46,911 nt of DNA from NCBI GenBank assembly GCA_903898185.1, contig CAIUEN010000523.1, positions 1-46,911 of the forward strand, given 5' to 3'. The stretch comes from an uncultured Verrucomicrobiales bacterium. GTDB lineage: Bacteria; Verrucomicrobiota; Verrucomicrobiia; Limisphaerales; Palsa-1400. Under the pieces are notes generated by a model, which was not told where the DNA came from, made no database searches, and saw only the letters and a program-made list of their open reading frames with translations. The position numbers and the translations under genes are program-made. Below are positions 2,149 through 5,998 of this stretch, one piece after another; positions within the stretch are counted from its first letter, which is position 1, and each line of letters begins with the position of its first letter.

Positions 2149-4005
2149 CTAAATCACCATATCCGCAACCGTTCGTCCGGCGGGGATGAATGGGAGCACA
2201 TGCTCGGTGTTCGGACAAATCACATCCAGCAAATACGGCTGATCTGAGTCGAGCATGCGCTGGATCGCTCCGCGCAAATCCTGCCGGTACATGACACGTT
2301 CGGCGGGGACGTTGAAGCTGTTGGCCACGGCCACGTAATCGGGATAAATCTTTTTCCGGCATTCGGGATCGCCCAAGTAAGTATTGCCACGGTTGCCTTT
2401 GTAAAATCTATCCTCCCACTGCATGACCATGCCCAAGTGCTGGTTGTTTAGAATAATCACCTTGGCGGCAATTCTTTCAATGTGCGCGCAGGCCAGTTCC
2501 TGGACGTTCATCAGAAACGCGCCGTCGCCGTCAATATCAACAACCTGGCGATCAGGGAACGCCACCTTTGCTCCCATGGCTGCGGGATAGCCAAAGCCCA
2601 TGGAACCGAGCCCTCCGCTGGTCAGGAATTGGCGGGGATCCTTGAACTTATAGAATTGCCCGGTCCACATCTGGTGCTGGCCGACACCGGTTGAGATGAT
2701 CGCATCTCCTTTGGTCAATTCATACAGCATCTCAATTGCCATTTGTGGAAGAATCACATCGCCCTCGCGGCCTTTGAGATGATCTTGAACGTGGTCCGAA
2801 CGCATGATTTCTGAGGTCAGCTCATAGCGGAACGGAGCGCGTTGCTTCCATTCGGCGACTTGCGCGTGCCAAGCGGAAAGATCGCGAGAGAGCGAGCGTT
2901 TGGCCAGCATCTCGTTCAAACGGCCCAAGGCATATTTGATGTCGCTCTCAATGGCCAACTGTGCTTTCTTGTTCTTGTTATGCTCGGACCGGTCGATGTC
3001 GATATGGACAATCGTTCCGCCCTTGCAGAATTCGTCGAGCTTGCCGGTCACACGGTCGTCGAAGCGGACTCCAAACGCCAGCAGCAGGTCGGCGCCAGGA
3101 TTGATCTTCACCATCGGTTCGTCCACGCTCTTGCGATGCTTGTACTCGCCGTTGACCGCCCAATTGGCGAAGGCTGCGCCATGCATGCCCAGCCATCGAA
3201 GCGAGAGGGGATGCGTCTCGGGGAACGCGCCGCACCCCATTAACGTGGTGGTCACCGGGATTTGGGTCTTTTCGACGAATTCCCGCAGTTCAGCCGAGGC
3301 TTCACCGGTGATGATGCCGCCGCCGCAATAGAGCACCGGGCGCTCCGCTTTTTCGATCAGGTCGATAACGCGCGTCAGAGATGCGTCATCCGCCTTTCGG
3401 ATGGGATCATAACCGCGCAAGTTCACCTCGGTGGGCCAAACGGGCTTGGCCTTGGTTTGCTGGAGGTTCTTGGGGAAATCGATCAACACGGGTCCCGGTC
3501 GGCCAGTTCGGGCCACATAAAGAGCCTCTTTGACAATTCGCGTGATGTCGTTGACGTCGGTAATAAGGTAACTGTGTTTGACGATGGGAAGCGTGATGCC
3601 GTAAATGTCGATTTCCTGGAAAGCGCTTTTGCCGATCATTGCCTGTGCCACCTGGCCGGTAATGGCCACAAGCGGAACAGAATCCATGTAACAATCGGCG
3701 ATGGCGGTGACCAGGTTTGTCGCGCCGGGGCCGCTGGTGGCCATGCAGACTCCGGGCTTGCCGGTGGCTCGGGCGTAACCGGCGGCGGCAAATGATCCGC
3801 CTTGCTCGTGCCGGGGAAGAATGGTGCGAATGGTCGAACGGGTCAGCGACTGGTGAATTTCCAAGCTGGCGCCGCCGGGGTAGGCGAAGATGTGCTCGAC
3901 GCCTTCGCGTTCAAGAGACCTCACCAATATATCGCAACCGAGCATCAGCTCACCGGAGTCGGCTTGCGGGGCCGGGTTCGATTTTGTTTCTGTTTTGTGT
4001 GTCAT
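2149..4005 (-). CDS. ilvB: Acetolactate synthase large (catalytic) subunit
   Basis: Thiamine-diphosphate enzyme of branched-chain amino acid synthesis. It condenses two pyruvates to acetolactate, or pyruvate with 2-oxobutyrate to acetohydroxybutyrate. In the 618-residue protein the N-terminal PYR domain carries the catalytic-glutamate region ([19 protein letters not shown]). It is followed by [21 protein letters not shown], a central FAD-binding-type domain, and the C-terminal ThDP motif running from [12 protein letters not shown] to ILNN. Length is slightly above the usual 560-600 because of a polar N-terminal tail. No regulatory subunit gene (ilvN/ilvH) or ilvC lies next to it; the neighbours are unrelated. 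Expression is probably controlled by the leader peptide and terminator upstream (4044-4173). The start ATG at 4005 has only a weak ribosome-binding site. Confidence 0.96.
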
Positions 4006-4043
4006 ATCTATTTTGCTCTATTTTGGCTGATGGTCATGCGCAT

Positions 4044-4074
4044 AAAAAAACCCACGACCGTTTCCAGCCGTGGG
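4044..4074 (-). terminator. Intrinsic terminator upstream of ilvB (attenuator)
   Basis: Read on the minus strand, a 10-bp stem (outer arm CCCACG/CGTGGG, with two G-U pairs further in) is closed by a GAAA tetraloop and followed directly by seven T. It sits 18 nt after the stop codon of the Val-rich leader peptide and about 38 nt before the ilvB start codon. That is the arrangement of a transcription attenuator. A competing antiterminator helix was not convincingly found by eye. Confidence 0.85.
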
Positions 4075-4092
4075 TTCTTGTTTAAAGCTATG

Positions 4093-4173
4093 CTAAGCGC
4101 AACAAGCACCTGCGGCGTAATCGTCTGTTACGACTACGACACTTACCAGAACTTGCAGCGTATTTGAATTCAT
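4093..4173 (-). CDS. Val/Leu-rich leader peptide of ilvB
   Basis: A 26-codon open frame on the minus strand starts with ATG at 4173 and stops with TAG at 4093-4095. Residues 8-15 read VLVSVVVV, and another Leu is at residue 6. This gives six Val codons and one Leu codon within eight positions; there is no Ile. Known enterobacterial ilvB leaders (IvbL) are likewise Val/Leu-rich, and ribosome stalling at these codons controls a downstream terminator. Here the terminator lies 18 nt past the stop. The peptide itself presumably has no function other than sensing charged tRNA-Val and tRNA-Leu. Its ribosome-binding site is weak. A TTGACC hexamer (4206-4211) stands 17 nt from a poor -10 (TAGCCT, 4183-4188), which would give an almost leaderless transcript, so the promoter is uncertain. 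Confidence 0.85.
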   Translation of the reverse strand: MNSNTLQVLVSVVVVTDDYAAGACCA

Positions 4174-4256
4174 TACGTTGCGAGGCTAGACGAACAGTTT
4201 CGAACGGTCAAGCGCCTTATTTGGCATTTAAGAAAGTCGCTTGATTGCGGATATTT

Positions 4257-4326
4257 ATACTGTAAACGGGTAAGATCGTTCCTTGTTCTCGGCGCAAAAA
4301 ATAACATTCTTACCCGTTCAAAGTAT
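4257..4326. repeat. 70-bp inverted-repeat element, copy 1
   Basis: Eighteen-base arms (4257-4274 and 4309-4326), with two mismatches, begin ATACT and contain AACGGGTAAG. A 34-base centre contains ATCGTTC and GGCGCAAAAAATAAC. A second copy of exactly the same length, with better-matched arms, is at 24893-24962. There is no internal coding capacity. It lies upstream of the ilvB leader and abuts an AGGCATCC-type repeat that begins at 4325. It may be a non-autonomous mobile element or a structured RNA hairpin. Confidence 0.85.
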
Positions 4327-4405
4327 AGCATAGGCATCCTTGCCTGCGCCCCTCTTCCGGCGAGCGTCAGCGAGACGCTAATTTCTCCTTCTGACCTGAA
4401 CAGTT
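4325..4405. repeat. AGGCATCC-type repeat overlapping the DAHP synthase 3' end
   Basis: This is one of four near-full-length copies of an about 82-bp sequence. It contains TAGCATAGGCATCCTTGCCT, then GAGCGTCAGCGAGACGCTAA, and ends CTGACCTGAACAGTT. The other long copies are at 21192-21274, 21288-21369 (inverted) and 22902-22983. Inside are short self-complementary parts (AGGCA-TCCT-TGCCT and AGCGTC..GACGCT), so transcripts would fold. It extends 36 coding bases into the leftward gene at 4367-5803 and supplies its stop codon. Confidence 0.85.
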
Positions 4406-5803
4406 GGTGATGGTGTTCTCTTTGTTTCGGTTGCGGGCCATGAGACGGGCCAGCAAGAAAGCCATTTCGAGGGCTTGCTCGCCGTTAAGCCGGGGATCGA
4501 CTGGAGTTCGATAGTCCCTCCCCAAGTCTGCTTCGGTCACGCCGCTGGCGCCGCCAATGCATTCGGTCACGTTTTCACCTGTCAATTCAAAATGAACACC
4601 GCCCAGATGGGCATTGTGATCCCGCAAGATGAGGAATGCCTTTTCCAGTTCCGCCAGGATCTTTTCAAAACGCCGGGTCTTGACGCCGGAGGCCGTGATC
4701 TCTGTGTTTTTATGCATCGGATCGCAGCACCAGAGAACCGACTGTCCGGCTTCTTGAACAGCCTTGATGATTGGTGGAAACGTGGCTTCGATTTCGTCTG
4801 CGCCAAATCGGTGGACTAGCGTGAGTTTGCCGGGCTCGTTGTGAGGGTTGAGAATTTGGCACAGGCTCACCACTTCGTCGGGCGTGATGGGGGCGCCGAT
4901 CTTCAATGCCACCGGGTTTTGAATGCCGCGAAAAAACTCGACATGGGCGCCGTTCAGAGCGCGGGTGCGATTGCCAATCCACGGAAAATGAGCGCAGAGA
5001 TCATACCATCCGACGCGGCGCGGCACCTGGCGCGTCTGAGCTTGTTCATAATGCAGCAACAATCCTTCGTGACTGGTGAAAAAATCGACGCGATTCATGT
5101 CGGTCAACGAGGTGCCGGTAACCGTCTCCATAAACTGAAGCGATTCGCGGATGGAATCGACCATGTGCGTGTATTCGCCTGCCAAGGGCGAATTGTGGAC
5201 AAATTGCATGTTCCAATATTCGGGATGATGCAAGTCGGCAAATCCGCCGTCGATCAGCGCCCGAATGAAGTTGATCGTCAGCGCCGAGCGCTCATATCCG
5301 CGCAGCAGCAAAGCCGGATCGGGAATGCGTTCGGCCTTCGAAAATCCAGGACGATTCACAAGATCGCCTCGATAGACTGGCAGCGAGATTCCGTCGCGCA
5401 TTTCCGTTTCCGAAGAGCGCGGCTTGGCGTACTGTCCGGCAAAGCGCCCGACCCGTATGACCCGTTGGCGGCTGCCGTGGACAAGCACCAAGCTCATTTG
5501 CAGAAGAATTTTAAGCTTCGCCGCGATCTGAGTGGGCTCGCAGTCCTCGAATGTCTCCGAGCAGTCGCCTCCCTGAAGCAGAAAACGCCCGCCCCGGACG
5601 GCTTCGGCCAACTGAGATTTCAAACTCTCGACTTCCCAACTGGAAACCAGCGGCGGCAACCGGGAAAGCTGGGCTAACACCGCCCGTAACTCCTTATCGT
5701 CTGGATATGAAGGCTGCTGCAAAGCCCGTTTCATCTGCCATGAATTGGGTCGCCACGAGCTCGCAGGATCGGTTGGCTGAGTTAAAGGATTGGCTGAATG
5801 CAT
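4367..5803 (-). CDS. aroG: Class II (plant-type) 3-deoxy-7-phosphoheptulonate synthase
   Basis: First enzyme of the shikimate pathway, joining phosphoenolpyruvate and erythrose 4-phosphate. The 478-residue protein is a clear class II DAHP synthase: WRPNSWQMKRALQQPSY at the N-terminus, the cysteine motif LLQGGDCSETFEDC, RVGRFAGQYAKPRS, MRDGISLPVYRGD, CDPMHKNTE and GGVHFELTGENVTECIGG. The start is placed at the ATG at 5803, with GGTGA upstream. The open frame runs a further 52 codons upstream but includes a short repeat (5862-5890) and has no family similarity. The last 12 residues (467-478) are encoded by the dispersed repeat at 4325-4405, so the natural C-terminus seems to have been replaced. 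The symbol follows common usage; class II enzymes are also called aroF or aroH. Confidence 0.95.
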   Translation of the reverse strand: MHSANPLTQPTDPASSWRPNSWQMKRALQQPSYPDDKELRAVLAQLSRLPPLVSSWEVESLKSQLAEAVRGGRFLLQGGDCSETFEDCEPTQIAAKLKILLQMSLVLVHGSRQRVIRVGRFAGQYAKPRSSETEMRDGISLPVYRGDLVNRPGFSKAERIPDPALLLRGYERSALTINFIRALIDGGFADLHHPEYWNMQFVHNSPLAGEYTHMVDSIRESLQFMETVTGTSLTDMNRVDFFTSHEGLLLHYEQAQTRQVPRRVGWYDLCAHFPWIGNRTRALNGAHVEFFRGIQNPVALKIGAPITPDEVVSLCQILNPHNEPGKLTLVHRFGADEIEATFPPIIKAVQEAGQSVLWCCDPMHKNTEITASGVKTRRFEKILAELEKAFLILRDHNAHLGGVHFELTGENVTECIGGASGVTEADLGRDYRTPVDPRLNGEQALEMAFLLARLMARNRNKENTITNCSGQKEKLASR

Positions 5804-5861
5804 CGTCAAATCACCGTCACGCTGCCACAGGAGAACGGAGGATGCAACGAAAACGCCAAAG

Positions 5862-5890
5862 TAGAACAGGCATCCTTGCCTGTTCCGGGC
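5862..5890. repeat. Short AGGCATCC-type hairpin
   Basis: GTAGAACAGGCATCCTTGCC, followed by TGTTCC, contains a perfect 8-bp hairpin (AACAGGCA-TCCT-TGCCTGTT). The AGGCATCCTTGCCT core is shared with the longer repeats at 4325, 21192, 21288 and 22902, but the GAGCGTCAGCGAGACGC half is absent. It lies upstream of the DAHP synthase start codon. Confidence 0.6.
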
Positions 5891-5998
5891 AAAGGGGAAA
5901 ATCCAAACAGGATCAAAAGAATTGATGAATTGGAAGAAGGGGTGGGCTTTTGGTAACACTTACGTTTTCGCGGATTGCATTCCCGGAACTAAATTGCT

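Follow-up and report, generated by a model that had tools for sequence, protein, structure and literature searches.

The region upstream of ilvB in the window, a stretch of 46,911 nucleotides from an uncultured Verrucomicrobiales bacterium, very probably encodes a ribosome-dependent transcription attenuator through which ilvB would respond to charged Val-tRNA. We infer ribosome stalling, RNA switching and the transcription start site from the anatomy of the locus, its conservation, covariation, codon bias and the promoter pattern. The first-pass annotation of this DNA had described a 26-codon frame containing VLVSVVVV, a stop codon, an interval of 18 nt, a 10-bp stem with a GAAA loop, seven T residues and then ilvB, and all of these elements were borne out by direct reading of the minus strand (Table 1). 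The leader ATG is at 4173 and the stop codon TAG at 4095-4093; 18 nt separate this stop from the terminator stem, and the VVVV run is written GTC GTA GTC GTA. The stem, CCCACGGCTG-GAAA-CGGTCGTGGG (4074-4051), comprises 10 bp including a G-U pair, or 15 bp with the A/U flanks included, and the seven T residues follow at 4050-4044. The region folds more stably than all of 200 shuffled versions (z -4.2). The gene after ilvB in the window encodes a beta-propeller protein and is not ilvN; the ilvN-ilvC genes of the same genome are found on another contig (G000:C173). The interval from the DAHP synthase gene to the leader promoter holds two kinds of dispersed palindromic repeat, ~75 and ~72 nt long (window 4255-4400). 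These repeats have at least 50 matches in the genome of the window, some with both halves, and a similar repeat also precedes ilvN.

Table 1. Features of the putative ilvB attenuator and its flanking genes in the window
Feature	Coordinates	Strand	Basis or remark
-35 box TTGACC, leader promoter	4206..4211	(-)	TTGAC(C) in 47/49 loci, 96/97 independent loci
-10 box TAGCCT, 17-nt spacer	4183..4188	(-)	TAnnnT pattern; 9 nt upstream of leader ATG
Predicted transcription start zone	4174..4178	(-)	Promoter geometry; leader 5' UTR would be ~0-5 nt
Leader peptide frame MNSNTLQVLVSVVVVTDDYAAGACCA, 26 codons + TAG	4093..4173	(-)	Direct sequence reading and related loci
Control codons VLVSVVVV, residues 8-15	4129..4152	(-)	Direct reading; order-wide Val enrichment
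Segment 1 CGCTGCAAGT, codons T-L-Q-V, putative anti-antiterminator with segment 2	4151..4160	(-)	Free-RNA MFE; covariation in 48 and in 145 sequences
Segment 2 GCCGCAGGTGCTTGTTGC, codons A-A-G-A-C-C, putative antiterminator 5' strand	4099..4116	(-)	Covariation and folding
Segment 3 AACAAGAACCCACGGC, putative antiterminator 3' strand, overlaps terminator 5' arm	4067..4082	(-)	Covariation and folding
Intrinsic terminator, segments 3:4, 10-bp core, GAAA loop, seven T	4044..4074	(-)	Direct reading; alignment
ilvB, large subunit of biosynthetic acetolactate synthase (618 aa), predicted regulated gene	2149..4005	(-)	TIGR00118, 668 bits, cut-off 538
Class II DAHP synthase, upstream neighbor, outside the switch	4367..5959	(-)	TIGR01358

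With the IlvB protein as query, 55 of 58 related genomes gave a match. The first set of 50 ilvB loci, two of them truncated by contig ends, has a leader and a terminator at the same position before ilvB in nearly every case. The leaders in nearly all of these loci are Val-rich frames ending in DAxGxCR(x) and a stop codon, with lengths of 22-28 codons, and the terminators share the form ACCCACGGCTGG..ACGGTCGTGGGT plus a T-run, with substitutions. A covariance model built from 48 of the first-fetched loci matched 278 of 320 genomes of Limisphaerales, including 149 of the 154 good genomes of the order (completeness of 90% or more, contamination of 5% or less). Among 99 additional loci, independent of those used earlier, ilvB was directly downstream in every case, and both leader and terminator were present in 97. 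Among 388 genomes sampled from the phylum there were 13 model matches; two were within the order (the genome of the window and one other), and most of those outside it were weak. Upstream of the ilvB loci fetched from other orders of the class, among them Chthoniobacter and Opitutales (54-66% identity), no Val leader with a terminator was found, the exception being a few that carry the Limisphaerales element itself. A different-looking ilvB leader of the same design, MRTEEGISRILGNFHGTEVKILALLVVVVGNRAVGRVLS (..LALLVVVVGNRAVGRVLS, then a stop), is present in one genome of another class of the phylum (L091), with the terminator AAAACCACCGCCGAAAGCGGTGGTTTT (AACCACCGCCGAAAGCGGTGGTT). In a genome of another order (L090, G632:C11:410-545), the terminator of the Limisphaerales element recurs together with a frame that contains Val, MSILVAVSAVVAKRDHAAGQLRLE followed by a stop, but the genes after them encode a methyltransferase and homoserine dehydrogenase, not IlvB. 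The Verrucomicrobiales bacterium Cf509_bin41 has two ilvB paralogs of ~59% identity (L165 and L167), of which only L165 has the attenuator; these may represent a natural pair with and without the element, or a transfer. The second-best model match in the genome of the window itself (contig C268, E 0.025) falls among repeats, where neither a leader nor an amino acid gene is present, and was taken as a chance match.

The first-pass annotation had reported no obvious antiterminator pairing, and had supposed that the switching mechanism may differ from the classical one. Both points had to be revised. At its end the leader frame contains segment 2, GCCGNNGGNNCUUGUCG, whose complement is segment 3, CGACAAGAACCCACGGC; the latter begins in the spacer and extends into the terminator 5' arm. 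Pairing thus joins the leader codons (GCCGNNGG..CUUGUCG) to the RNA after the stop codon and to that arm (CGACAAG.ACCCACGGC). In the window the 2:3 helix consists of GCCG/CGGC, a 2x2 loop (CA against CA), GGU/ACC, a 1x1 loop and CUUGUU/AACAAG. Helix 2:3 covaries: 15 cells in 48 sequences have changes on both sides, against 5.7 in shuffled alignments (0/500), and in 145 sequences there are 45 such cells against a shuffled mean of 17 (maximum 27). In the larger set 82% of cells are paired; the highest value among 500 shuffles is 81.0%, and slid columns give 30-62%. The column pair 92:119, for example, is CG in 88 sequences, UA in 29 and UG in 7. The median energy of the 2:3 duplex is -24.5 kcal/mol, compared with -16.6 kcal/mol when synonymous codons are shuffled, a gain of ~8 kcal/mol, and the duplex beats the synonymous shuffles in 98.6% of loci. 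Thus selection for pairing acts on the codons, and not only on the peptide.

The R-Q-V or L-Q-V codons that immediately precede the Val run (CGACAAG or GCGCUGCAAG) are complementary to segment 2 (CUUGUCG or CUUGUCGCGC) and form helix 1:2 with it. Of the cells of this helix, 73.5% are paired in 48 sequences, against 66.3% in shuffles, and 37 cells are doubly changed against 17.3 (0/500), exceeding every slid version. In 145 sequences 83% of cells are paired, with 69 double-change cells against 24 in shuffles; versions slid by +1 to +3 have similar numbers of double changes (56-72) but are only 40-46% paired. Because slid columns match the double-change counts in the larger set, support for 1:2 comes from pairing and double changes taken together with the 48-sequence result. 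An earlier model of 1:2, which had the Asp-Ala-x-Gly codons as partners of the Val codons, gave no advantage over synonymous shuffles (mean z 0.01) and was dropped; the Val run is not constrained as RNA structure. Since 2:3 and 1:2 both covary, the element looks like a classical 1:2 / 2:3 / 3:4 switch, with an antiterminator and an anti-antiterminator. The order-wide conservation and the covariation strongly support the proposal that a phylum distant from the enterobacteria has an ilvB attenuator built from a terminator and a Val-rich leader.

In the terminator itself, 97.7% of cells are paired in the 48 sequences, and RNAalifold on the alignment predicted only this structure. The window RNA folds in three ways according to the segments available: the free RNA has 1:2 plus the terminator as its minimum free energy fold, RNA cut before segment 4 folds into 2:3 (-20.1 kcal/mol), and RNA with segment 2 hidden folds into the terminator. 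The median energies of terminator and antiterminator are almost equal (-21.7 vs -21.1 kcal/mol). For the complete RNA at equilibrium, however, folding places the terminator plus a local hairpin ahead of the antiterminator even with a stalled ribosome, and antitermination must therefore be under kinetic control, with 2:3 formed ahead of the emergence of segment 4.

The segments also bear on the possibility that the product of the leader frame, an arrest peptide or a trans-acting small protein, is the active agent rather than the supply of Val-tRNA. The residues QV..VVVV..DAxGxCR are conserved in the leader, and the S. meliloti trpL leader peptide has a known role in trans (PMC7298713). However, segments 2 and 1 are built from the codons for the conserved C-terminal residues and for R/L-Q-V, so that pairing of the RNA explains why these residues are conserved; the other residues vary. 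We therefore regard action of the peptide as improbable.

In 47 of 49 loci the leader is preceded by a promoter-like sequence consisting of a TTGACC box, a spacer of 16-18 nt (17 nt in 30 of 47 loci) and a TAnnnT box. The distance from the end of the -10 box to the leader start codon is 5-13 nt in these loci, most often 8 nt; with the independent loci included it is 4-13 nt, with a mode of 7-9 nt. Because the choice of start codons in these 49 loci had taken distance to the promoter into account, the analysis was repeated on the 99 unused loci, and the frame control on these is the fairer one. TTGAC was found at the promoter position, with an in-frame start codon, in 96 of 97 independent loci, and among the 96 loci with TTGAC a start codon 26-36 nt downstream lies in the leader frame in 95, as opposed to 5 and 1 in the other two frames. 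A scan of positions 3500-5000 with a strict sigma-70 consensus listed no promoter, since it was too strict for TTGACC/TAGCCT. The usual distance from the -10 box to the transcription start is 6-8 nt; the leader 5' untranslated region would therefore be ~0-5 nt long. No Shine-Dalgarno site is evident upstream of the leader in the sequences listed. Thus, from promoter geometry, the leader mRNA is probably essentially leaderless. There is precedent for such a start in the C. glutamicum ilvBNC leader, whose transcript begins one nucleotide from the leader start codon (PMC11857589), and in the S. meliloti trpL leader (PMC7298713). The promoter and the predicted near-leaderless start are additions to the first-pass annotation.

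Valine is the one branched-chain amino acid strongly enriched in the leaders. There are 6.8 Val codons per leader, 4.0-fold over ilvB, compared with 2.0 Leu codons (1.2-fold) and 0.7 Ile codons (0.4-fold), in each case for the last 24 codons. The choice of Val codon is likewise distinctive: GTA accounts for 32% of Val codons in leaders but 2.6% in ilvB, a 12-fold difference, whereas the share of GTG falls from 49% in ilvB to 10% in leaders. This bias fits a device that reads the charging of Val-tRNA. The first-pass annotation had taken the absence of Ile codons to fit a system sensing only Val and Leu; the enrichment points to Val rather than to both, since leucine is not enriched.

A riboswitch, with the short frame untranslated and the leader RNA bound directly by a small-molecule ligand (ppGpp or a branched-chain amino acid, for example), would agree with the good conservation of this RNA and with the ppGpp riboswitch that controls ilvB in some Firmicutes (PMC10272879). 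We consider it very unlikely, as conservation tracks the reading frame with its Val run, start and stop codons share a frame in 95 of 96 loci, the choice of Val codons is strongly biased, no conserved RNA structure involves the Val run and there is no Rfam match. Least credible of all is an assignment of the terminator to a small RNA or to the DAHP synthase gene upstream, which ends at 4367, with the Val-rich frame incidental: terminators after same-strand upstream genes are common, but the element has its own putative promoter between the DAHP synthase gene and ilvB, a dispersed repeat sits between aroG and the leader, ilvB is directly downstream in 99/99 checked loci, and pairing between the leader codons and the terminator arm is much stronger than after synonymous shuffling.

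Under the attenuation model, RNA polymerase would start at the dedicated promoter almost at the leader ATG, and a ribosome would load on the essentially leaderless mRNA and trail the polymerase. With ample valine the ribosome would reach the stop codon and cover segment 2, so that the 3:4 terminator forms and transcription stops before ilvB. When valine is scarce, a ribosome stalled in the Val run would cover segment 1 and leave segment 2 free. Free segment 2 (codons A-x-G-x-C-R) could then pair with segment 3 (CGACAAG.ACCCACGGC) before segment 4 is made; with 2:3 formed there would be no terminator, and ilvB would be transcribed. If the leader were not translated, 1:2 would pair and the terminator would form by default.

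The enterobacterial ivbL-ilvBN system has a short Val-rich leader, a stop codon, an intrinsic terminator and competing helices, with valine as the signal. The arrangement in the window had been likened to it, and the likeness holds for the Val-rich leader before ilvB, the terminator, the competing helices and the predicted Val signal. The window element differs in belonging to another phylum, in having no recognizable sequence relation to ivbL and no ilvN after ilvB, in its apparently near-leaderless start and in the lack of Leu enrichment. It also resembles the Corynebacterium ilvBNC leader, or ilvB-II motif, in which a leader with VVV precedes ilvB, the attenuator has three hairpins and the start codon is near the transcript 5' end (PMC11857589, PMC10272879). 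The Corynebacterium leader, however, has 15-17 codons (MTIIRLVVVTARRLP in C. glutamicum) and a different RNA sequence and gene order, whereas the element described here has 22-28 codons and the antiterminator strand in its last codons. The ilvB-OMG and Leptospira ilvB motifs, compared by description, likewise carry short frames rich in branched-chain codons before ilvB and are proposed attenuators (PMC10272879), but they are rare, whereas the present element occurs in most of an order. In Mycobacterium tuberculosis ilvB1NC, an upstream ORF with branched-chain codons, a terminator and an antiterminator precede ilvB1; this system is actinobacterial, with an ordinary, longer leader and the control codons LVVI, unlike the element in the window (PMC13236596). 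A search of Rfam 15 with the window element gave no match at the gathering score, and at a relaxed E-value only sub-threshold matches to unrelated families. According to a 2010 survey, leader-peptide attenuators were known only from Proteobacteria and Actinobacteria, to which the survey itself added Firmicutes (PMC2965389). Our literature search found no report joining Verrucomicrobia with ilvB leaders or transcription attenuation. The putative attenuator is a new RNA family in a new lineage, with a known mechanism.

Similar leaders were found elsewhere in the order. Leu-rich, apparently leaderless frames with their own terminator precede leuA of one type in 28 of 29 loci, a few being weak or without a clear terminator; for leuA of the other type, a Leu leader was found in 19 of 28 fetched loci, some of them partial. 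The leuA of the window's own genome (L370, G000:C401, upstream of 15265) has TTGACC..GTG with the frame MKLNLNLFVGYALLLSNAAVEV, a stop codon and the terminator CCCCCACTGCCAGCTTGGCGGTGGGGG; the general form of the leuA terminator is CCCACTGCC..GGCGGTGGG (L331-L357, L358-L386). An antiterminator of the same design is visible in relatives, pairing GGCAGU-C-GGGUUC with GAACCC-C-ACUGCC (by eye, unscored). Leucine would thus be read separately, by the leuA leader, a predicted sibling of the ilvB element that reads Leu. In the window's own genome, ahead of ilvN-ilvC (L387, G000:C173, near 1120-1300), we observed TTGACC-17-TAAATT-11-ATG and the frame MKHWINILTVVVVTAWLGLGH with its stop codon; this frame has the same GTC GTA GTC GTA run, and no T-run terminator was seen there. 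A third leader-like element combines a TTGACAA-type promoter, a frame of 30-38 codons, often with W-x-R-C or a similar Trp motif, and the terminator ACCCGCGATTGCC..GGCAATCGCGGGT. It precedes an uncharacterized protein of ~115 aa without a Pfam match in 9 of 9 model matches and 17 of 30 further loci (L226, L234, L235, L241, L242, L246, L247, L248, L250; L389-L417).

The Limisphaerales may well share, as a standard device, an undescribed class of leaderless leader-peptide attenuators, with a TTGAC promoter, the start codon at the RNA 5' end and the antiterminator in the last codons of the leader; its members would pair Val with ilvB, Leu with leuA, possibly Val with ilvN-ilvC, and a W-x-R-C leader with the small protein. 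The ilvB element provides an order-wide example of a putative attenuator supported by covariation, with hundreds of natural variants, and a good data set on how antiterminators are written into codons. With its predicted start site, it would also be a clear case of translation starting on top of the transcription start. Control by valine and leucine in uncultured bacteria would thereby become predictable from their genomes.
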